Position numbers and translations under genes: made by a program
Shown here: positions 298-20,576 of the stretch, in pieces
Layout of the letters: the number at the start of each line of letters is the position of its first letter
Position numbering within the stretch: the first letter of the stretch is position 1
Notes under the pieces: model-generated
Database searches by the model: none
What the model was told of the DNA's origin: nothing
The model's input: only the letters and a program-made list of their open reading frames with translations
Assembly: GCA_016932965.1 (NCBI GenBank)
Contig: JAFGBW010000022.1
Span: 1 to 21,995 of the forward strand
DNA length: 21,995 nucleotides
Source: Candidatus Auribacterota bacterium
Lineage (GTDB): Bacteria > Auribacterota > JAFGBW01
Direction of reading: 5' to 3'

Positions 298-486
298 TCA
301 TCCTTTCCATTTTGTTGATAAAAGCACAGCCTTTGGGTCAATGCTTTTAAGCCCGCCCGGATAAGCATCCGGTTTAAAGGCTATGGTGTATTTTTTAAAC
401 AGAATTCTTTTTATTAAAGAAAAATTCGCAATGAAAATCAAACCGAACAGGCTTACAAGGATTTTAATAAAATATCTCCGCGTCAT
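298..486 (-). CDS. small membrane protein with twin-arginine-like N-terminus, between amrS and amrB
   Basis: This is a 62-residue protein of unknown function. The start at 486 is chosen because its ATG overlaps the amrS stop (ATGA) and has GGAG seven bases upstream; an ATG at 525 lies deeper inside amrS. The N-terminus is MTRRYFIK, close to the Tat consensus (S/T)RRxFLK. One hydrophobic segment follows, about residues 8-21 (ILVSLFGLIFIAN). No clear AxA cleavage site is visible, so it may stay membrane-anchored. The C-terminal half is soluble, rich in Pro, Gly and Lys, and ends KWKG. Its place between two AmmeMemoRadiSam genes, with overlap on one side and a 4-base gap on the other, points to a partner or anchor for that system. 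No catalytic motif was recognised. Confidence 0.7.
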   Translation of the reverse strand: MTRRYFIKILVSLFGLIFIANFSLIKRILFKKYTIAFKPDAYPGGLKSIDPKAVLLSTKWKG

Positions 487-1454
487 GACCATACTCCAGG
501 AATTTTTGTTTGGCAGCCAGGGCATTGGCCTTTTTCCAAATTATTTTCCAAGATCACATATCTGTCCCGCTGGATAAGCTTTTTACGGCAGTTCGGACAA
601 AAAGTATTTTCTCCATTTTTCGTGGACAGATTGCCTATGTAAACGTAGTCCAGCCCGACAGATTTGGCAATCTGAAAAGCCTTTTCCAGGGTCCGGGAAG
701 GGGTTGGAGGAAGATTCTGCATGAGATACATTGGGAAAAATCGCGAGAAATGCAAAGGGGTATCCTTACCCAGATTGGTTTTCATCCACTGGCAAAGAGC
801 CTGGATGTCCTTGTCGCTGTCATTTAAAGTCGGAATGATTAGATTAGTGACTTCCAGCCAGACCCCCATTTCCTTGGCAAGGACTAAAGCATTCAAAACC
901 GGCTTCAGAGATCCTCCGCAAATTTGCTGGTAAAAAGAATCCGAATAGGCTTTCAAATCAATGTTGGCCGCGTCAGAGAAAGCATAAAGTTCTTTGAGAG
1001 GAGGGGTATTCAGATACCCTGCTGTCACGAGCACATTTTTTATACCGGCCTTTTTTGACGCCCTGCAGGAATCAAGCGTGTATTCATAAAAAGCAACCGG
1101 ATCTGTATAAGTATAAGCGATCAATCGGCAGTCATAAGATGATGCCGTCTTTGGCAGAGACTCAGGAGGAAGATAAAATGCTTCCACATTCTCCGGATCT
1201 GCCTGGGAAATTTCCCAGTTTTGACAGAATTTGCAGTGGAGATTGCATCCGACGGTAGCCAGTGATAATATTCGACTGCCTGGAAAAAAGTGAAAGAGCG
1301 GTTTTTTTTCTACCGGGTCTACATGCAGGCTGCATGGGTAGCCGTAAGTGACGGCGGTCAATTTTCCGTCCAGATTGATCCGGATTCGGCATTCTCCCCT
1401 ATGACCGGGAAGAATGATACATCCCTTGGGGCATAGTTCGCATTGAACCAGCAT
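483..1454 (-). CDS. amrS: AmmeMemoRadiSam system radical SAM enzyme
   Basis: This is a 323-residue radical SAM protein. The [4Fe-4S] motif is C70-x3-C74-x2-C77 within GCNLHCKFCQNW. An N-terminal Cys set (C5, C8, C12, C22) precedes the family signature DPVEKKPLFHF at about 46-56, and a C-terminal zinc-ribbon-like CPNC/CPGC pair sits at C286/C289 and C311/C314. These features match the AmmeMemoRadiSam enzyme, which is related to pyruvate-formate-lyase activases and whose substrate is not established. The start at 1454 has AAGGAA just upstream. The protein begins directly at the Cys-rich segment, slightly shorter at the N-terminus than I would expect. It leads a tight operon with the 62-residue protein and the Memo gene. 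No AMMECR1-domain gene is visible here. Confidence 0.93.
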   Translation of the reverse strand: MLVQCELCPKGCIILPGHRGECRIRINLDGKLTAVTYGYPCSLHVDPVEKKPLFHFFPGSRILSLATVGCNLHCKFCQNWEISQADPENVEAFYLPPESLPKTASSYDCRLIAYTYTDPVAFYEYTLDSCRASKKAGIKNVLVTAGYLNTPPLKELYAFSDAANIDLKAYSDSFYQQICGGSLKPVLNALVLAKEMGVWLEVTNLIIPTLNDSDKDIQALCQWMKTNLGKDTPLHFSRFFPMYLMQNLPPTPSRTLEKAFQIAKSVGLDYVYIGNLSTKNGENTFCPNCRKKLIQRDRYVILENNLEKGQCPGCQTKIPGVWS

Positions 1455-3369: not shown

Positions 3370-4395
3370 ATGTTGAGATGGGTTCTCATTCTATTTTATG
3401 CGGTCTGTTTGAATTTTCCGCTTCTTGCTTCCATTGAACACTCGCAAACTGATGTTCTTTTCGAAACAGATTCAAAATCCAATCCGGAAGCAGTTTCTTT
3501 GGATATAGCGGCAAAAAAGAAAGAAACGGAATCTGCCCTGGAAAATTCCACCCAATTGCATATCAGTCCGATATACCTGACAAGGGATTTTTTTTCCATT
3601 TCTCATTTTTCAAGGTTGCCGGTTAATTTTCAGATGACTTTGAATCAAATTCTGCTTTCTTACGAACTGAACAATAAAAACCACCTTTATGTCCGGACGG
3701 CTGAATTGGATACCATTCATGGATCCAAAGGTGAAATGGCGAGTGTTTCTTTTCAGCATCGCTTTGATCGGCTCCCTTACCGGATAGAGACATTTTGTGA
3801 TTCCATTTACGCCCAAGACGGAATGAACCAATTGGAAGCCGTATCCTTTGGCGGAAGAGGGAAAATGCCTTTGTCCAATCAGTTTGCTATCAATAGCGAA
3901 ATAGCCTGTGGAGAAAGAAAAACCATGGATTCTATTTCTCCTTTCTATCATACCACTCTGTCAGGCATATGGAATCCCCAGACATCAGGAAAACCTCAGG
4001 TGACGCTTTCCTATCAATATCTTTCAGGAGATGTTCCGAAAATGAAAGAAATGGACAACGATTCCTCCGTTTCTTCCATTTCTGTCATGAATGTTTCATT
4101 AGCCTGTGCGCCGGTTAAAAGCCTTTTTATGAGTGTGGACTATTATTATTACCTTCAGAATGAGGCCGAGATTCAAACACTTAGCAATCATCGTTCTCTT
4201 CTCGCTAGTTTAGATTTGAATGAGGCGCAAGACGTATTGGAAGAGGAGCTCAATTTCAAAGCCACGTATGTTTATTCAAAAACACTGGTGTCCCATCTTT
4301 TGGCAGGATGGTTTAACCGCGGCCCCTTGTCTTACGGACATACGGATGACAGTAAAACCTTTGAAATCCGCGGAGAGATCATTGTCAATTTCTAA
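3370..4395 (+). CDS. predicted outer-membrane beta-barrel protein
   Basis: This 341-residue protein has a signal peptide (residues 1-20, MLRWVLILFYAVCLNFPLLA) and a low-complexity linker to about residue 60. Alternating hydrophobic/polar strands rich in Tyr, Phe and Ser follow, for example SVSFQHRFD, VTLSYQYLSGD and FKATYVYSK. The chain ends EIIVNF, with the terminal Phe typical of BAM-inserted barrels. Strands such as the SYQYLSGD segment recall alginate-export-like porins, but I cannot assign a family. About 12-16 strands could fit. The start at 3370 is the first in-frame ATG; an AGGAG lies somewhat far (about 17 bases) upstream. It is followed 97 bases later by a flippase-like membrane protein on the same strand, so envelope transport or lipid handling is plausible. 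The substrate is unknown. Confidence 0.6.
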   Translation: MLRWVLILFYAVCLNFPLLASIEHSQTDVLFETDSKSNPEAVSLDIAAKKKETESALENSTQLHISPIYLTRDFFSISHFSRLPVNFQMTLNQILLSYELNNKNHLYVRTAELDTIHGSKGEMASVSFQHRFDRLPYRIETFCDSIYAQDGMNQLEAVSFGGRGKMPLSNQFAINSEIACGERKTMDSISPFYHTTLSGIWNPQTSGKPQVTLSYQYLSGDVPKMKEMDNDSSVSSISVMNVSLACAPVKSLFMSVDYYYYLQNEAEIQTLSNHRSLLASLDLNEAQDVLEEELNFKATYVYSKTLVSHLLAGWFNRGPLSYGHTDDSKTFEIRGEIIVNF

Positions 4396-4492
4396 CGGAT
4401 TGATCTCGTATTGACTCCGTTATCTTTTGGAAGATCATTGGAGGTTCCTCTATTTTGACGATCCTTATTTTGAAACAGGGGTGAAATGCTTC

Positions 4493-5518
4493 ATGCTTTG
4501 CCGGATAAAAAGATTTTTACCGTATTTTTTCCGTCTCGTGCTGACCTTGTTTGTGATCGCGGTCATTTGTTACGGGTTTGAAAAAAAACTGGGACAACAA
4601 GAGGATATTCTCGGGCAAATCAAAACCCATTTTCAGCATATCCATTTCGGCTGGTTCAGCCTGGCTTTGTCGATTTATTTTGTCTATTCCTTTATCTCAG
4701 CTTACCGTATCGCTTTATTGACCTGGTCTCATGATATCCCCATTTCCTACAATAAATTATTGAAGAATATCTATATTGGATATCTCTTTAACTTATTCTT
4801 AATGGGATCCACTGGCGGAGATGTGATCCGTTCATATTACCTGACCAAGGAGACAGGGAAAAAAACGGAAGTGGTCACGGTTGTTTTTCTGGACCGGCTT
4901 TTAGGAATGGCCGTCATGGTTTCCCTGGCCATCATGGCTCTCATATTCAATTTTAATGAACCCAAACTGCGTTTTTTAATCACAGGTGTTTTGAGTCTTT
5001 TTTTTATCATGATGGTGGTGATTCTTTTTTTCTCATCCAGAAGAATCATGAAAAGATTTGCTTTTCTGATCCCTTTGCTTGACAAATTGAAGATAAAAGA
5101 GATCGCCATAAAAACTTTTGAGACGCTGAATCAGACAAAAAAAAGAAAAAAAGTTCTGATCGGTGTGATCATCAGCACGTTGATCATCCAATCCTTGGCT
5201 ATTGTTTCAGTGTGGCTTGTTTCTCTTTCCATGATGAAGATCCATTTCATTCCCTTGAGATATTTTTTTCTATTCCTTCCGGTTATTTACACCATTTCTT
5301 CCGTTCCTATATCTGTAGGAGGGCTGGGGGTTGGCGAGGCCTTGTTCGCCGGATTGTTTGCCATCGTTGGAGTCAATCAGGTGGATGCCATCAGCATTTC
5401 TCTTTTAAGCCGCTCCATCCTCATTATCGGAGCTTTGGTGGGCGCCGTGATATACCTTCTTCCTTCCACCGTGCCTTATTCGGAAGAGGAGAAGGAACAA
5501 ATGGGCGTTTGTTGCTGA
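4493..5518 (+). CDS. LPG-synthase-TM / flippase-like integral membrane protein
   Basis: This is a 341-residue inner-membrane protein with about 8 hydrophobic segments. It matches the UPF0104 / lysylphosphatidylglycerol-synthase transmembrane family: GSTGGDVIRSYYL near residue 105 is the family's GGDxxR motif, and SVPISVGGLGVGEALF near residue 270 is its PxSxGGLGxxE motif. The soluble aminoacyl-transfer domain of MprF is absent. Members are thought to act in lipid or polyprenyl-linked glycan handling, but direct functions are rarely shown. I place the start at ATG 4493, preceded by CAGGGGTG, because it yields the usual short basic N-terminus (MLCRIKRF) before the first membrane helix. A TTG at 4427 would add 22 residues of unlike character. 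It may be cotranscribed with the barrel gene. Confidence 0.83.
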   Translation: MLCRIKRFLPYFFRLVLTLFVIAVICYGFEKKLGQQEDILGQIKTHFQHIHFGWFSLALSIYFVYSFISAYRIALLTWSHDIPISYNKLLKNIYIGYLFNLFLMGSTGGDVIRSYYLTKETGKKTEVVTVVFLDRLLGMAVMVSLAIMALIFNFNEPKLRFLITGVLSLFFIMMVVILFFSSRRIMKRFAFLIPLLDKLKIKEIAIKTFETLNQTKKRKKVLIGVIISTLIIQSLAIVSVWLVSLSMMKIHFIPLRYFFLFLPVIYTISSVPISVGGLGVGEALFAGLFAIVGVNQVDAISISLLSRSILIIGALVGAVIYLLPSTVPYSEEEKEQMGVCC

Positions 5519-5551: not shown

Positions 5552-7051
5552 TTATGAGCTTGCTTCTGCAGAGGTTCTGTCAGGAAAAGGAATGTCTGCA
5601 TGGATTCTTTTCTCCAGCGTTTTTTCCGCTAAAGCAAAAATTTCCCTCATGATCCTTTCTTTTTCTCCCTCAGAAGACCGGGCTGCGGTGACCAGATGGA
5701 ATGGAAAATCAGCCAGAGATATTTTTAACGGGCTATCAGGTTTGTCTTCTTTTATCATGGACAAAATGTCTGAATCCAGATGATCAAACAAACCCTGGAA
5801 AAAATTTAAAACATATATAAGGCGCTCATCCGGAGTGAGATGACAAACAGATTCTTTATCCATATCATCAAGCAGTCCCAGACTGTTATTCAGTTTCAAG
5901 CAAAGGTTAGACAGGGTGCGTAATAATATCATATCAGGAGTAAGCATCGTTACCGATTCCAACGAAGAGAGTTCTGCGTTTTCTTCCATGACGGATGACA
6001 CTTCACAAAGATCAGATTCTGAACCGCAGAAAGATTCATCAAGCAAGGAATAGGTTTTTTTTATTTTGTTCCAGTTGATCAGATACGCCAGAGCGGTTCC
6101 CTGACGGTAAATGATCCACTTCAGTAAATCTTTTGCAGTTTGAAAAACAGGAGCCGGAATCCCTAATGTCTTTAACCCTTGTGAAATATCCGAGGTTAAA
6201 CGGGAAAAAGAAGGATCAGACATTTTGATTTGTCTGAGATGCGGTAAACGATAGGGTGTGACAACAACGGATATTTCTCCATAAGGAATGATGTTATTAT
6301 CCCTGAAAAAAACAGAATCAGCCACTGGTACCAGTGATCCGGCTTGATCTGGGAGGCTTTTATACTGGCGAATCCCAAGAACGATAGGGAAAGGCCCGCC
6401 GTTTAATTCACGGGCGGCATTCAAAGCATGTGAGGCCTCCTCTTGTCCCCCCAAACCCAGGAAACGGTGTTGATATTTAAAATAGGGTCTTGGGTCATGA
6501 GGATCAATATTTTGACCGGAAAATTTATGGCAGAGAAAAATACCTCCTTTTAAAGGAAAAAAAGCCGATCTTCCGTGGATAACGTCAAAAATTCTGAATG
6601 GGTCTTTCTCATAAGGCCTGTCGGTGAATCCCACAATGATGGTTCGTCCCTGGTGATGTAATTTCAGGGCATTTTCAACTGATCCGGTTGAAAATCCGCA
6701 GATGGAATTGATATAATCCATTCCGCCAGCCAGATCAAGATAACCGGAATTGGCTTTAACCGCCTGAAAAGGACCTAATTCGCCTTTTGATTCTTCCAGC
6801 ACAACATGAAAAACAGGACGGAAGGCAGGATGTTTTAATAAAATGTCTTTTACCAGCGCGTTTGCCGGATGTTCCATGATGAACCGGAACATTTCCAGAT
6901 TATTACCCACATCGGAAAAGATCCTTTGCTCATCCTCACTCAACTGCCTTCCCTGAGGAGAAAGAGCTGAAGATTCTTTCAGGGCGGTATAAGAAAAAAT
7001 GATCAGTGTCCCTAGGATAGATTGAATCATTCTTTTCGTATAGATGAGCAT
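5552..7051 (-). CDS. secreted protein of unknown function (499 aa)
   Basis: The family was not recognised. The start at 7051 is supported by AGGAAA eight bases upstream. It gives MLIYTKRMIQ followed by a hydrophobic core and a probable cleavage near residues 30-33 (ESSALSPQ). Frames further upstream, up to 7138, lack such a signal. The mature part has a mixed alpha/beta section to about residue 300, with motifs such as LDLAGGMDYINSICGFSTG and IIVGFTDRPYEKDPFRIFDV. It ends in a helical, acidic and Leu-rich region (about 330-480). No Cys-His metal motif or classical hydrolase box stands out. The gene follows ispG by 124 bases on the same strand and ends 33 bases from the convergent flippase-like gene. 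It may be a lineage-specific periplasmic protein. Confidence 0.65.
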   Translation of the reverse strand: MLIYTKRMIQSILGTLIIFSYTALKESSALSPQGRQLSEDEQRIFSDVGNNLEMFRFIMEHPANALVKDILLKHPAFRPVFHVVLEESKGELGPFQAVKANSGYLDLAGGMDYINSICGFSTGSVENALKLHHQGRTIIVGFTDRPYEKDPFRIFDVIHGRSAFFPLKGGIFLCHKFSGQNIDPHDPRPYFKYQHRFLGLGGQEEASHALNAARELNGGPFPIVLGIRQYKSLPDQAGSLVPVADSVFFRDNNIIPYGEISVVVTPYRLPHLRQIKMSDPSFSRLTSDISQGLKTLGIPAPVFQTAKDLLKWIIYRQGTALAYLINWNKIKKTYSLLDESFCGSESDLCEVSSVMEENAELSSLESVTMLTPDMILLRTLSNLCLKLNNSLGLLDDMDKESVCHLTPDERLIYVLNFFQGLFDHLDSDILSMIKEDKPDSPLKISLADFPFHLVTAARSSEGEKERIMREIFALAEKTLEKRIHADIPFPDRTSAEASS

Positions 7052-7106
7052 GAGGCTTTTCCTGGATTGCTGAGTATTATTATCTATTTGCCAGCCCTGG
7101 CATGGT

Positions 7107-7126
7107 ATGGCATGAAACCATGCCAT
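7107..7126. promoter_or_regulatory. perfect 8-bp inverted repeat upstream of the secreted orphan gene
   Basis: ATGGCATG (7107-7114) and CATGCCAT (7119-7126) are separated by four bases. An overlapping alternative pairs GGCATGG with CCATGCC. It lies between the ispG stop and the downstream start and could be an operator or an RNA hairpin. No T-run follows on either strand. Confidence 0.35.
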
Positions 7127-7174
7127 CACAGTATGCAACCGGTTAGGGGCTTTTTTCCTGACTCCTTACATACT

Positions 7175-9314: not shown

Positions 9315-10229
9315 ATGACTTCAAAAGCCATCATCATCTTTCCTTATCTGGGATATGAGAATAACGAAGGGTGCGAATATTTTTTTTGGTGGACAGTTGA
9401 TAAATGCAAACAACTGGATGAAAAACCCATTATTGTCATGAGCAGAGAAACGGTTCTCAATAACAACGCAAATTCGTTTCTCATGGACGAGCGTTACGAG
9501 ACATTGGAGGTGATTCAGACCTGGTCCGTGGACACCTGTCAGACCTGGCTAGCCGGCTGGGGACATGTCCTGGATCATTATCCTGAAGCGGACAGGATCA
9601 TCCAGACCCCGGGAGACATCGATTATATTCAGGAAGAAAACGATTTTTACGAGAACCTGGAGGATTTTATTGAAACAACCGAAGCGGATATTGCCATCGG
9701 TGATTTTAAAACTGGAGATCAATACAGTGCAAAAGGCCTGGTTGACACTTACGGCACGTATTCGCTTTTGGCGAACTGGTTTCCTGAGATTTCCAAAAGT
9801 ATTCGTTCTCTGCCTCTCAACAGGGCAAGATCGGAATTCTTAAATATCAAGATATCTGTGTTAAGGGATCTTTTGATCAATCATAGAAAATTTGCGTACG
9901 AACAAACGCTTAATTTCTTGATCAAATCATGGGATTACTCGGAAAGCAGATGGAAATATCCGATTTCAGTTTTCCCGCTCGGCACTCTTTCCGACAATAA
10001 ATCCTTCAGAAAGTACAGAGCCTCCATTGACCAGATTGAACGGATCGAAAGGATGCTTTCTCTGTTGTGGAGGGAGATAAAAGAGCCTAAAAAAGTAAAG
10101 GGTATCAGTGAAAAAGCGTTTGAAGAGCAGTACAAGGAATTCAGCGACGAATACGATAAATTGTTTACCAAATCCAACGGCATCATGGAAACAGCCCGGA
10201 CTACCCTTCGTGCATTGCTTGGAGTGTGA
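9315..10229 (+). CDS. uncharacterised protein, possibly GT-A-like glycosyltransferase
   Basis: This 304-residue cytoplasmic protein has no signal or membrane segment. The start is clear, with AGGAG five bases before ATG. The N-terminus (AIIIFPYLGYE..) reads as a Rossmann-like beta strand. PEADRIIQTPGDIDYI (90-105) has the strand-then-DxD layout (Asp101, Asp103) of nucleotide-sugar-binding GT-A enzymes. DIAIGDF (125-131) is followed by a well-ordered central segment, LVDTYGTYSLLANWFPEI (142-159). RARSEFLNI (170-178) and a basic/aromatic block around residues 220-245 follow. The tail (about 260-300) is helical and charged. The glycosyltransferase reading is inference from these motifs only. It is followed 70 bases later by a radical SAM gene on the same strand, with which it probably works. 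Confidence 0.5.
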   Translation: MTSKAIIIFPYLGYENNEGCEYFFWWTVDKCKQLDEKPIIVMSRETVLNNNANSFLMDERYETLEVIQTWSVDTCQTWLAGWGHVLDHYPEADRIIQTPGDIDYIQEENDFYENLEDFIETTEADIAIGDFKTGDQYSAKGLVDTYGTYSLLANWFPEISKSIRSLPLNRARSEFLNIKISVLRDLLINHRKFAYEQTLNFLIKSWDYSESRWKYPISVFPLGTLSDNKSFRKYRASIDQIERIERMLSLLWREIKEPKKVKGISEKAFEEQYKEFSDEYDKLFTKSNGIMETARTTLRALLGV

Positions 10230-10299
10230 TGTTGGTTAAATTGGGCTCGTTTACAAACAGGCCAATCTGATTTCAATGACGGATGATCAGGAGTTAAGA

Positions 10300-11508
10300 A
10301 TGCAGAATCTCGCATCTCAATATCAATTATACCGCTTGCCCTGGAGTGCCGTTGACAATGTTAACGGGTGGATTGAAATTACGGATTCATGCAATCTCAA
10401 TTGCAGCGTCTGCTATAGAAAAATCAGAAGCAATACCTATTCATTATCCGAATTAAAAGAGATGGTTGATACAACCATCAGGATGAGAAACTGCGATCAC
10501 ATAGCCATTGCAGGCGGGGAACCTCTCCTGGTTGATTTTCTGGAAGATTTAGTTGAATACATAAAAGAAAGAAATGTAAAAGTCACGGTCATTACCAATG
10601 CAGTTTTATTGAATGAGGATAAGCTCAATTCACTTCAAAAGGCCGGATTAGACCGTTTGACACTGCATATTGACAGCAGGCAGCCGAGACCCGGGTGGGA
10701 AAATAAGACTGAGCTGGAATTGCTCCTGCTGAAACAGACATACCTTGATATGATAAGCCGATATTCTATTCAGTGCAGCCTGATTTCCGTTGTTTATCCA
10801 GAAACCATGCAATATGTGCCGGACATCATCAGATGGGCCCTGGAAAATGCTGATAAGATTTCAAATCTGACTTTTGATCTGTTCAGGTTTTCTCCTTTGC
10901 CTGAAAAAATAAAGAGTTGTTTTGCCCTTGACGGAACTCAGATCCATCCTGAAAAGATAAGGGCCATCAATTCCGTTTCCGATGAGAAAGCCATCCAACT
11001 GGATGAATTGTTTGCCGAGATCCATCAATCTATTCCTGAATTCATACCCCATTCTTATTTAAACGGCACCCAGAAACAGGACACGGTAAAATGGCTGCTG
11101 ACTTCTTTGATCATTTTTAATAAAAGGATAATCGGGCATGTCGGGCCAAAAACGATAGAACTGGCGACGATGCTGCATCATTTATTTAAAGGCAGATACC
11201 CTTCATTTATCGGAAAAAATAATTTAAAAATGTTAGCGTGGGGCTTGCTGTTTGACCGTGAATTACGAAGCGCCCTCTTGAATTATTTATCAACATGCCT
11301 GAAAAATCCTCGAGGATTTTTTAATAAAATGAATCTGTTGACCATAGCGCTTATTCAACCGACGGATATTTATCCCAACGGGATGAATAACTTATGTGAC
11401 GGGTGCCCTGATGCGATCTTGTATAAGGATATGCTGGTTCCATCATGCAGACTGGATGAATACCGACAGTTCGGCAGTTTATTATATGTCCCCTATAAAG
11501 AATCCTGA
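10300..11508 (+). CDS. radical SAM protein with C-terminal Cys motif
   Basis: This is a 402-residue radical SAM enzyme of unknown substrate. The cluster motif is C31-x3-C35-x2-C38 (CNLNCSVCYR). Other core elements are the AGGEPLL motif near residue 77, ITNAVLL near 104 and LTLHIDS near 125. A C-terminal Cys set, CDGCPD (C366, C369) plus SC383RLDE, resembles SPASM/twitch-type auxiliary-cluster ligands and may hold a second Fe-S site. The segment between about 240 and 340 is Leu- and Phe-rich with basic residues and could contact membrane or a lipid substrate. I chose ATG 10300 over 10276 because AGGAG lies seven bases upstream of it. It pairs with the GT-like gene just before. The radical SAM assignment is firm; the role is unknown. 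Confidence 0.85.
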   Translation: MQNLASQYQLYRLPWSAVDNVNGWIEITDSCNLNCSVCYRKIRSNTYSLSELKEMVDTTIRMRNCDHIAIAGGEPLLVDFLEDLVEYIKERNVKVTVITNAVLLNEDKLNSLQKAGLDRLTLHIDSRQPRPGWENKTELELLLLKQTYLDMISRYSIQCSLISVVYPETMQYVPDIIRWALENADKISNLTFDLFRFSPLPEKIKSCFALDGTQIHPEKIRAINSVSDEKAIQLDELFAEIHQSIPEFIPHSYLNGTQKQDTVKWLLTSLIIFNKRIIGHVGPKTIELATMLHHLFKGRYPSFIGKNNLKMLAWGLLFDRELRSALLNYLSTCLKNPRGFFNKMNLLTIALIQPTDIYPNGMNNLCDGCPDAILYKDMLVPSCRLDEYRQFGSLLYVPYKES

Positions 11509-11600: not shown

Positions 11601-12476
11601 TTACGGTGCCTCGTTTATTTCAAGGCTCGACCGGGATATCCAGAAAGGGATCATTTTCAGGGATTCATCCAGGAGCTTTTTGAGCACCGGTACAGGGATT
11701 TCCTGTTTTTCATAGGCTTTTGGGTCATTACCCAAAAGACAGGCGACACTTTTTATCACAAGCAGCCTGACCTTATTGACAGAGGCAATGGACGAGACGG
11801 AGGCGGATTCTCTGTCCCAGGCCAGAGCGCCGAATTGATTTTTTAGGTTGGCCATTTCCGCAGGTGTTTGGATGGGTTTATCCCCGGAGGCGATCACCCC
11901 TTTTTTTGCCCACGCCGTGGCCGCAGCTCCGAGCCAGCTCAAATCGATATCCGTTGTTATTTTTGTAGCGGACGCCACTATTCTTTCGACAATCAGCAGC
12001 TCTTCCTTGTTCACGCTTCCTTCAAATCCGTTACAGACTCCAAGATGGATCATGAGCTTGGGTGACCAGCGGTCAATGGCATATTGAGTGGCTCCTCCGG
12101 CAAAAATCGCTCCCGGACCGTTGTAAAAAAAGGCGACCTCGAAAATGTCATCTTCCAGGGGCATTTCAGCCAGGAACCATTCACCATACGGGGTGGATTC
12201 CTTCGGTACGTTGGAAAAAAATTCTTTTTGGATCACTTCCCATTCACCTGCCCCTGAGACCAATATGACAACTTCTTGATTTTCATCCTGCACAGGTACT
12301 TGAATGGGATGGGCTGTTTGCTGTTCATCGCTTTGTTTGATGCTAACAGATGAACTTTGGCTTTGGGCGGAACTGGTTGCGGATTGAAAATAGAAAAAGA
12401 TACCCGCTAAAATGCTAAGGACAGGCCGCATGATAAGATAAGCCGTTTTACAGGATGAAGAGTGGTATCGATTCAT
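11601..12476 (-). CDS. exported MTA/SAH-nucleosidase-like protein, active site altered
   Basis: This 291-residue protein has an N-terminal signal (hydrophobic core about 17-30, possible cleavage near SSAQ at 35-38) and a Ser/Gln-rich linker to about residue 66. A purine-nucleoside-phosphorylase/MTAN fold follows. GAGEWEV (75-81) aligns with GAMEEEV of E. coli MTAN and keeps the catalytic Glu (E78). GPGAIFAGGATQ (120-131) and HLGVCNGFEG (144-153) are the substrate loops. WDRESA (220-225) keeps the ribose-binding Glu (E223). IKSVACLLGN (241-250) stands where IRxxSD is expected, so the catalytic Asp is Cys246. The start at 12476 has GAGG six bases upstream. It follows purB by 17 bases and is likely cotranscribed. 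Export is unusual for MTAN. Enzyme activity is uncertain. Confidence 0.75.
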   Translation of the reverse strand: MNRYHSSSCKTAYLIMRPVLSILAGIFFYFQSATSSAQSQSSSVSIKQSDEQQTAHPIQVPVQDENQEVVILVSGAGEWEVIQKEFFSNVPKESTPYGEWFLAEMPLEDDIFEVAFFYNGPGAIFAGGATQYAIDRWSPKLMIHLGVCNGFEGSVNKEELLIVERIVASATKITTDIDLSWLGAAATAWAKKGVIASGDKPIQTPAEMANLKNQFGALAWDRESASVSSIASVNKVRLLVIKSVACLLGNDPKAYEKQEIPVPVLKKLLDESLKMIPFWISRSSLEINEAP

Positions 12477-17321: not shown

Positions 17322-18878
17322 ATGGATATAAGGAAATTATCTGTCACTCTTATCAATCCAAGTGTTGGAGCCTCCTTAATTGGAGGTAGTTATAATCGAG
17401 ATATCAGACATGGAGAACATCTTTCATATTCATTATCTTTAGCTACCGTTGCCGGCGTATTGGCTGATTGCGGAGTCTCTCAAGTAAAGATCATTGATGA
17501 AAATCTCGGGGAATCCTATCTGGACTCTTTACAATCAGATATAATCGGAATTACGGGGTTCCCTTCGCAAAAGGCACGAATTCTTTTTCTTTCGGAATTT
17601 TTTTTCTTACAGAATCGTATCGTGATCCTCGGAGGACCTTTCGCCACTATATTTCCCAAGGGTCTTCATTCAATTTGCACTTCTGTTTTCATAGGAGATT
17701 GTGAAAAGACCTTGCCCCGGTTTCTCGAAGATTATAAAAATTCAAAAATAAGAAAGGAATACCATCAGGAACCGTCAACCTCGCCTCCTGTTTTTCATAA
17801 GCCCCGGTATGACATAATCAAGATGAAACAATATACCTTTTCCTGTCTGCAGACGACCAAAGGCTGTCCGCATGATTGTGAATTTTGTACGGTTTTTCTT
17901 CATTTTGGTCGAAATGTGTCTACTAAACCGATTGAACTGGTAATTCAGGAATTGGAGGAGGTATACCGGATAAAAGGCCCCTCTTCTTTTATCCTATGCG
18001 ACGATAACTCGGCTGCGGACCCTGTGTATTTTAAAAATTTACTTCAGGCTATAATCGTTTTTCAGGAACAGAAAAATTATCCTTTTCGCTTCATCACCGA
18101 AGTGACAATTCTGATCGCCAGAGATGAGGCATTGCTTGAATTGATGGCAAGAGCCGGAATTTATATTGTTTTCATCGGTATTGAATCTCCTCTGGAAGAG
18201 AGTTTGAGGGAGGCGGGTAAAAAAATGAATTTAATGGTCGACATGGCGGGAGCCATACAAAAAATCCAATCCTACGGGATTTGCGTCGACGGGGCTTCCA
18301 TTGTCGGATTCGATCATGATGATGCCTCTATTTTTGACAAACATTTTAACTTCTTTGATCGATTAAATATCCCCAACATTTTTTGTTCATTATTATATGC
18401 TGCGCCTAAAACTCATCTTTTTGAAAGACTTCGTAAAGAAAACCGTCTGATAGAGTCTCCCTATTGCATGGGGCCGGCCAGGGATTCTTCGGAATTGGAA
18501 TTTTTAACAAACATCATTCCGGCCCGGATGACCCAGCAGGAACTCATCGAAGGGTATAAGAAGCTGGTATTCCGGTTGTATAGTTTTAAAAATTTTGGAA
18601 ATCGTCTGATCCGTTACTTGCAGATACCGCTTAAAATGAATAATGAAACCCTTATCAACACAACCAAACATAAGGGTTTGTCTGTAATAAAATGCATTCT
18701 TCTCATTACCTGGTATCATCTCGTTGAAGAATTTCCTCAAAGCTTTCTGATTTATATGCGGATATTGTATCATGCTTATAAGCGTAAAAGGCTATATATC
18801 GCTTTTCATCACCTGGTTCATTTTAAGCAAGTCCATACTTATTATTATAAACATTGTTCCCCGACCCGGACTGAATGA
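17322..18878 (+). CDS. B12-binding-type radical SAM protein, copy 1
   Basis: This 518-residue protein has a Rossmann-like cobalamin-binding domain (about 5-150; DENLGE near 58, GITGF near 77, ILGGP near 104). No DxHxxG His loop is visible, as in many radical SAM cobalamin enzymes. The radical SAM core holds C182-x3-C186-x2-C189 (GCPHDCEFC), then GRNVSTKP and a CDDN strand near residue 227. The C-terminal region looks like the DUF4070 part found in hopanoid-methylase-like and related enzymes. It ends in an aromatic and basic stretch (about 450-510) that could lie on the membrane. AAGGA sits close before the start. It is a paralogue of the next gene. The substrate is unknown; a lipid or other hydrophobic target is inferred. 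Confidence 0.85.
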   Translation: MDIRKLSVTLINPSVGASLIGGSYNRDIRHGEHLSYSLSLATVAGVLADCGVSQVKIIDENLGESYLDSLQSDIIGITGFPSQKARILFLSEFFFLQNRIVILGGPFATIFPKGLHSICTSVFIGDCEKTLPRFLEDYKNSKIRKEYHQEPSTSPPVFHKPRYDIIKMKQYTFSCLQTTKGCPHDCEFCTVFLHFGRNVSTKPIELVIQELEEVYRIKGPSSFILCDDNSAADPVYFKNLLQAIIVFQEQKNYPFRFITEVTILIARDEALLELMARAGIYIVFIGIESPLEESLREAGKKMNLMVDMAGAIQKIQSYGICVDGASIVGFDHDDASIFDKHFNFFDRLNIPNIFCSLLYAAPKTHLFERLRKENRLIESPYCMGPARDSSELEFLTNIIPARMTQQELIEGYKKLVFRLYSFKNFGNRLIRYLQIPLKMNNETLINTTKHKGLSVIKCILLITWYHLVEEFPQSFLIYMRILYHAYKRKRLYIAFHHLVHFKQVHTYYYKHCSPTRTE

Positions 18879-18971: not shown

Positions 18972-20576
18972 ATGTCCGTATCCGTCTGCCTGATTAATCC
19001 TCTTAATAGGAATTCTTTCTGGAGTTGTGAATACAACAGGGGAATACGTAATAATGAATCAGCATTTTATCCGCTGAATCTGGCAACGGTCGGAAATATT
19101 TTTCATAGATGTGGAATGATCGAGGTCTGCATCATTGATGAAAATATTGAGGATAAGATTCAAGAAGCTGAACAATCAGACATCATCGGAATAACCGGTT
19201 TTCTGAACCAGAAAGACAGGATTTTTCAAATAGCAGAATATTTCAGAAATAAAGGGAAATACGTTATTATCGGCGGGCCTTTGGCGTCTGTTCTTCCCGA
19301 AGAAGTTCAACCCAGATGTTCAACAGTATTTGTCGGTAATTGTGGGGATACGATCCCTTTATTTGTGGAGGATTATTATAACCATAACCCCAAAAATATT
19401 TATTCTTACGATCCGAAAACAGCCAAAACGGATTTTGTTGTTCCACGATTAGATTTGTTGAAAATGGATAGATACGGCGGGGCCATGATTCAAACTACCA
19501 TTGGGTGCTCTTCCCAGTGTGAATTTTGCGCGACCCATTTGCATTCAGGCAGGGAAATCAAGACAAAACCCTACTCTATGATAATTGAAGAATTGCGTAA
19601 CATATTAAGATATAAAGGCCCTACTTCAGTATTTCTGGCTGATGATAATGCCTATGCAAATAAAAGTTATTTCAAGAATTTGATGGGAATCATCACATCC
19701 TTTCAAAAAGAAAACGGATATCCTTTCAGATTTTCAACGCAGATCACGGTTTTAATTGCTCAAGATGAAAATCTTCTGGAATCAATGGCTAATGCTGGAT
19801 TTTACAGCGTTTTAATCGGGCTGGAAACACCAGATATTGATTCTGCCAGGGAAGCGAAAAAAGATTTTAATTTCAGCTCGGATATTCATGATGCCGTCAA
19901 AACCATTCAAACTTACGGCATATCAGTTGATTCCGGATCTATTCTTGGATTTGATCATGATACTAAGGATTCTCATAAAAATCATTTTGAATTTTTTCAG
20001 TCCCTGAATATTCCGTTGGTCGGGCCGACCATGTTATATGCTTTTCCAAAAACCAAATTGTATAATCGGCTTATGAATGAAGGCAGACTGATTGAAGAGA
20101 GAGCATTGATTGCATCAGGAGCTGTTCAAGGCACCAGTGATACGGCAATGGAAACGAATTTTATCCCGAAATCCATGACCATGGAAGAATTGATAAACGG
20201 AACCAAGATGCTTCAGGAAAAGCTCTATTCTTTTAAATATTTTGGCGAACGATTGGTCAATTATCTGAAAATACCGGTTAAAATCAACAATGAATTATTC
20301 ATTCATGCCCATGCTAAAAGAAAAAATAAATTTAAAATCATATTGAAGACGACTGCATTTTTCCTGATCGAAGAATTCCCCAGGAGTTTCATTATATATT
20401 TAAAAGTTTTATACTATGCCTGGAAGAACAAAAGATTTTTTATCGCATTCTGGCACATGGTTCTATATAAGCAAACCTATACCTTTTATATGAGGCTTTC
20501 AAAAAACAGGAATTTCAGCACTAAATATGACAGAATTGCAAAATATTTTTCCAGGCGCAGTAAAATAAGTATCTGA
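18972..20576 (+). CDS. B12-binding-type radical SAM protein, copy 2
   Basis: This 534-residue paralogue of the preceding gene is colinear over the full length. Shared blocks include SDIIGITGF near residue 73, the cluster motif C179-x3-C183-x2-C186 (GCSSQCEFC), the DDN strand, the QTYGISVDSGSILGFDHD block near 316-333 and the EEFPRSFIIYLKVLYYAWK stretch near 470. The start at 18972 has GAGG seven bases upstream. Copy 2 has an extra basic tail (NRNFSTKYDR..RRSK) not present in copy 1. The two differ at many core-flanking positions, so this is an old duplication with likely different substrates, not a recent copy. A possible terminator hairpin follows at 20655. Confidence 0.85.
   Translation: MSVSVCLINPLNRNSFWSCEYNRGIRNNESAFYPLNLATVGNIFHRCGMIEVCIIDENIEDKIQEAEQSDIIGITGFLNQKDRIFQIAEYFRNKGKYVIIGGPLASVLPEEVQPRCSTVFVGNCGDTIPLFVEDYYNHNPKNIYSYDPKTAKTDFVVPRLDLLKMDRYGGAMIQTTIGCSSQCEFCATHLHSGREIKTKPYSMIIEELRNILRYKGPTSVFLADDNAYANKSYFKNLMGIITSFQKENGYPFRFSTQITVLIAQDENLLESMANAGFYSVLIGLETPDIDSAREAKKDFNFSSDIHDAVKTIQTYGISVDSGSILGFDHDTKDSHKNHFEFFQSLNIPLVGPTMLYAFPKTKLYNRLMNEGRLIEERALIASGAVQGTSDTAMETNFIPKSMTMEELINGTKMLQEKLYSFKYFGERLVNYLKIPVKINNELFIHAHAKRKNKFKIILKTTAFFLIEEFPRSFIIYLKVLYYAWKNKRFFIAFWHMVLYKQTYTFYMRLSKNRNFSTKYDRIAKYFSRRSKISI

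Follow-up and report, generated by a model that had tools for sequence, protein, structure and literature searches.

The glycerate-directed glycosyltransferases GpgS, MpgS, and mannosylglycerate synthase (MGS) form one structural group, in which MpgS and MGS are the closest structural relatives of GpgS (PMC2581804). Among radical SAM enzymes, the tetraether synthase Tes, a lipid tail-coupling enzyme, possesses an N-terminal rubredoxin domain and an N-terminal auxiliary cluster, with Met439 and Tyr459 conserved (PMC9433317), and the auxiliary cluster of MoaA is held by three cysteines (PMC9012708). The window analysed here, one entire contig of 21,995 bases (G000:C255) from a 3.14-Mb genome of the Auribacterota, which are placed in the PVC group, carries two adjacent genes whose predicted products resemble members of these two sets of enzymes by fold (Table 1). 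The original prediction had joined the two genes into a module that could make a modified glycolipid or natural product. The explanation favoured here, which we consider likely as a whole, is that the first gene encodes a GT-A glycosyltransferase (GT) with a symporter as its partner, that the radical SAM gene is independent of it, and that the GT and the symporter lie apart in the lineage of the window genome. Computation establishes the GT family, its conservation, its predicted fold, its linkage to the symporter, and the absence of a linkage to the radical SAM family.

Table 1. Coordinates of the features discussed, as positions in the window.
Feature	Position	Strand	Basis
GT-A-fold glycosyltransferase, 304 aa, without described sequence family	9315..10229	+	ORF, AF2 model, 31 homologous loci
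PGDID, DxD-type metal/nucleotide-sugar motif (D101-x-D103)	9609..9623	+	conserved, after predicted strand 94–97
46-bp gap between GT and radical SAM genes	10230..10275	+	sequence
Radical SAM protein, 410 aa, Tes-like fold	10276..11508	+	PF04055, AF2 model, 7tol match
CX3CX2C radical SAM cluster motif (C39, C43, C46)	10390..10413	+	invariant in alignment
CX2CX13C C-terminal site (C374, C377, C391), likely auxiliary Fe-S cluster	11395..11448	+	pattern once, Cys invariant

The GT had been described from its sequence as belonging to no recognised family, and the searches agree, with no match to Pfam, NCBIfam, or PADLOC at E ≤ 1 and single matches to PHROG (E = 0.32) and to a PDB sequence (E = 0.17) that are both at the level of chance. 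A scan of genome contigs recovered 31 homologous loci at 68–81% identity, labelled as Omnitrophota or its genera (n = 29), Candidatus Elulimicrobium (n = 1), and Auribacterota (n = 1), the last being a contig (locus L051) of G001, a genome from the same order and the nearest relative of the window genome in the search. Within the sample of the phylum Omnitrophota, the GT was present in 15 of 285 genomes, and among 43 relatives from the same phylum as the window it was found in G001 only. A profile search of 384 genomes around the window genome, mostly from other phyla, likewise returned the window genome and G001 only; two extra matches, one of 42 amino acids (E = 3e-4) and one to a stretch bearing stop codons (E = 0.01), were rejected as chance. 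No relatives of the GT occurred in the phage, plasmid, and viral contig collections searched. Overall, the family is narrow in distribution and very highly conserved, with a mean pairwise identity of 78% in the Omnitrophota set compared to 63% for the adjoining symporter.

The AF2 model of the GT (pLDDT 79.8, pTM 0.81), calculated from a shallow input alignment of 32 similar rows and weak at residues 1–20 and 71–80, bears out the earlier view of a GT-A-like protein. The best 50 rows of the structural comparison were all GT-A enzymes (Z 11.7–15.8), and the best PDB match was the MGS of Rhodothermus marinus (GT78; 2bo4_A), with 251 of 304 residues aligned at Z 15.8, 3.8 Å, and 8% identity (VIA-align). 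Among the matches listed, MGS was followed by dolichyl-phosphate mannose synthase (Z 13.9), GpgS (Z 13.8), and MpgS (Z 13.4), leading the next family by about 2 Z units, and its alignment covers the chain throughout, C-terminal helices included. Foldseek agrees, with MGS at E = 5.6e-5 to 1.9e-3. By structure, the GT shares a common GT-A subgroup with GpgS (GT81) and MpgS (Z 13.2–13.8), though with 7–13% identity and no sequence match. The GT is about 90 residues shorter than MGS, and no link between the two was detected at the sequence level by hmmsearch (−2.5 bits), hhalign (probability 0.1), or profile alignment, so the substrate of MGS is not transferable to the GT, the GT is not classed as GT78 but is proposed to work like such an enzyme, and a mapping of residues is claimed for the DxD motif only. 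A literature search for Omnitrophota together with mannosylglycerate found no paper.

The DxD-like TPGDID string to which the original prediction had pointed occupies residues 98–103, and most of it is conserved: P99, G100, and D101 are invariant in 32 of 32 homologues and position 103 is an aspartate in 30 and a glutamate in 2, while the leading threonine varies. With three invariant positions and an acidic residue always at the fifth, PGDx(D/E) is under selection and not a chance string. The motif follows the strand formed by residues 94–97 of the model, at a chain position that matches D100-A-D102 of MGS. Such a placement is as in glycosyltransferases, which argues against a GT-A-like nucleotidyltransferase acting in the activation of a sugar-1-phosphate. 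Enzymes of that type have related folds and GlmU, TarI, and IspD do appear in the Foldseek list (E of about 1e-4 to 1e-3), but none was among the best 50 structural rows, where MGS leads and is aligned over the whole chain, making a nucleotidyltransferase very improbable. A further point of comparison is H217 of MGS, a metal-ligand histidine following the last strand. No conserved histidine was seen near this place and none is invariant among the aligned GT homologues, and S226 and D227 are invariant nearby, both comparisons standing outside a residue-level structural register. From the model, and among the families that the fold searches listed, the first protein is most likely a GT-A glycosyltransferase, the representative of a family without a described sequence relative.

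A GPH-type (MelB-like) cation:sugar symporter accompanies the GT as its conserved partner, an assignment that is well supported. Each of the 28 Omnitrophota-type loci that extend upstream of the GT has an MFS_2/GPH symporter gene directly before the GT on the same strand, with a gap of 36–265 bp, and the 28 genes represent one orthologous transporter. The symporter occurs in all 15 of the GT-bearing Omnitrophota genomes compared to 69 of 285 genomes overall (Fisher p = 1.6e-10, a value that overstates the strength of the association as related genomes are not independent). The GT is missing from 54 of the 69 symporter-bearing genomes, and thus the symporter does not need the GT. Among the Omnitrophota loci with the symporter and no GT (L093–L106), several genomes have operons with a GH94 phosphorylase, a sugar ABC transporter, and GH72-like or similar proteins, and these symporter-only operons suggest the use of a glucan or similar oligosaccharide. 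Six of the GT loci have sugar ABC permease genes close by, and some carry a LacI regulator together with a GH2-type protein.

The symporter has a strong match to PF13347 (204.8 bits, cut-off 27) and is like MelB in keeping the DxxxDP pair, as D70 and D74 are invariant in the alignment and stand opposite the DAINDP of MelB, the aspartates of which are Na+ ligands. Its score to TIGR00792 (gph; 167–199 bits) falls below the cut-off of 231, so that it is GPH-like within a subfamily of its own. With an MFS profile of the symporter, MelB (84 bits) came a little behind MFSD2A, a lysolipid symporter (102 bits), which leaves some room for the MFS protein to flip a glycolipid made by the GT across the membrane instead of importing a sugar. 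Synthesis and flipping of a glycolipid are modelled on the ypfP-ltaA arrangement of staphylococci, and the structures that the GT resembles include dolichyl-phosphate mannose synthase. Nonetheless, the curated matches of the MFS protein are glycoside symporters (TIGR00792, MelB, and glucuronide), the best whole-length match of the GT is a soluble enzyme with a small acceptor, and the MFS gene, where it occurs alone, sits in the oligosaccharide operons described above. On balance, glycolipid flipping is unlikely, and a cation:sugar symporter remains the preferred partner of the GT.

The arrangement differs in the Auribacterota, where the GT and the symporter are unlinked in both GT-bearing genomes. 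The symporter orthologues are on other contigs, in the window genome on G000:C124 (601 bits) and in G001 on C49. Between these two genomes the symporters are only 48% alike compared to 80.5% for the GTs and, given that the genes are also unlinked, joint work of the two proteins in the window genome is not required. In G001 the GT is flanked by a block containing an Elp3-like radical SAM gene, rplM, and rpsI, and the same block lies beside the symporter in G002, a 77%-complete genome in which the contig ends inside the symporter gene. This shared flanking block suggests an older GT–symporter linkage in the Auribacterota too, and an ancestral transporter–GT unit that was later broken up explains the split. 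Alternatively, the unequal similarity of the transporters and the GTs makes it possible that the GT was acquired independently.

The partner originally proposed for the GT was the radical SAM gene, which follows on the same strand 46 bp downstream. A consensus scan detected no promoter- or terminator-like site inside the gap, the shortness of which makes co-transcription possible in the window genome. The neighbour statistics called for by the original prediction do not extend this pairing beyond the window genome: the radical SAM family was absent from all 31 GT loci (470 kb), including that of the closest GT relative, as well as from the G001 genome itself, and the GT was absent from all five loci of radical SAM relatives. 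The adjacency is therefore probably incidental. A single pathway, in which a lipid or natural product is both glycosylated and modified by radical chemistry, would draw on this adjacency, on the fold of the radical SAM protein, which is closest to that of Tes, and on the ability of GT-A enzymes to use lipids, but the pair was found in one genome only and the constant partner of the GT is another gene, the symporter, such that we give a joint pathway very little credence.

The radical SAM protein is better read on its own. Its match to the Pfam domain Radical_SAM (PF04055) is above the cut-off at 69.9 bits and C39, C43, and C46 are invariant across seven aligned relatives, in keeping with the standard motif noted at the outset. 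The same alignment holds C374, C377, and C391 invariant, the CDGCPD...SC stretch that had been read as a second cluster; the cysteines are thus real conserved features, and a cluster is plausible from their pattern. The CX2CX13C pattern occurs once in the protein. The auxiliary-cluster cysteines of MoaA have the same CX2CX13C spacing, and the three C-terminal residues could plausibly serve one auxiliary cluster. In the AF2 model (pLDDT 77.6, pTM 0.82), the best PDB match is Tes (7tol; Z 23.6, 316 residues aligned, 18% identity), extending to the C-terminal part of the fold, and the next among the matches listed is MoaA (Z 16.0). A viperin-like role in defence, raised by PADLOC matches of 58–72 bits to core residues of about 34–137, was rejected, as viperin reaches Z 14.8 compared to 23.6 for Tes. 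The protein differs from Tes in that the N-terminal rubredoxin and auxiliary-cluster domains are missing, with no cysteine before residue 39, and in a score of 66–67 bits to NF045702 (Tes/GDGT-MAS) where the cut-off is 450; no profile alignment with the C-terminal sequence of Tes was obtained. As the best fold match comes with absent N-terminal metal domains and a low score, lipid chemistry is a reasonable lead and not a result.

Full-length relatives of the radical SAM protein (32–34% identity) were found in 3 of 384 genomes besides the window genome (G190, G231, and G248), and among the genes around the relatives are further radical SAM genes, one for a family-2 glycosyltransferase, and one for a CDP-alcohol phosphatidyltransferase fusion. 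The gene looks to be independent of the GT and sporadic in distribution, encoding a Tes-like enzyme that is probably active on lipids. The window genome holds a second Tes-like radical SAM protein elsewhere (G000:C39:3139-3753; L019, L109), which scores 94 bits to NF045702, shows CPEC...C-x-x-H in an N-terminal stretch that aligns with the beginning of Tes, and is closer to true Tes than the protein encoded in the window.

Several other genes on the contig were noted. Tandem paralogous genes on the forward strand (17322–18878 and 18972–20576) encode B12-type radical SAM proteins with DUF4070 that resemble HpnJ, BchE, and ladderane-type lipid enzymes, although well under every curated NCBIfam cut-off, and are two further candidates for lipid or hopanoid-like chemistry. 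A radical SAM enzyme of the AmmeMemoRadiSam system (483–1454, reverse strand) exceeded the cut-off of TIGR04337 at 401 bits. On the reverse strand is a phosphorylase/nucleosidase-like gene (11601–12476; PF01048) with weak matches to HpnG and MTA/SAH nucleosidase, an N-terminal stretch of which looks by eye like a signal peptide, unusual for proteins of this type. A flippase-like membrane protein (4427–5518, forward strand; TIGR00374, PF03706) adjoins an unassigned 341-aa protein at 3370–4395, and a 528-aa protein (5552–7138, reverse strand) had no Pfam match and an NCBIfam match at chance level.

For the GT and the symporter, we infer the catalysis, the use of a metal, the type of acceptor, and the joint function. 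Judged from its model, the GT would be a soluble, metal-dependent GT-A enzyme, in which a nucleotide sugar is most likely bound through PG-D101-x-D103. By analogy with the mannosylglycerate and glucosyl-3-phosphoglycerate synthases, it would most likely pass the sugar on to an acceptor that is small and hydrophilic. The GT and the symporter form an apparent operon in the Omnitrophota and would most likely handle one small glycoside, possibly a solute or storage sugar, with the symporter responsible for import or salvage and the GT for synthesis or extension. A broader proposal, which we advance tentatively and with some doubt, is that this new GT-A family, so far restricted to the Omnitrophota, one order of the Auribacterota, and one Elulimicrobium-labelled MAG, makes up with the GPH symporter a two-component system for building or remodelling an undescribed small glycoside (a solute or storage sugar), and that the GT, far more conserved than the symporter, has either passed between phyla or been held under unusually tight constraint.

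The tempting pathway joining the GT to the radical SAM enzyme is removed as unsupported, and the radical SAM gene is pointed instead to lipid chemistry. What sets the GT apart is that its sequence belongs to no described family while its predicted fold is well supported, its partner is nearly constant, and its conservation across phyla is unusually high. These features offer a first way into the function of a gene that is conserved in the uncultured Omnitrophota and has a relative in the Auribacterota, and one purified GT, screened against donors and acceptors, could reveal a small glycoside of these bacteria.
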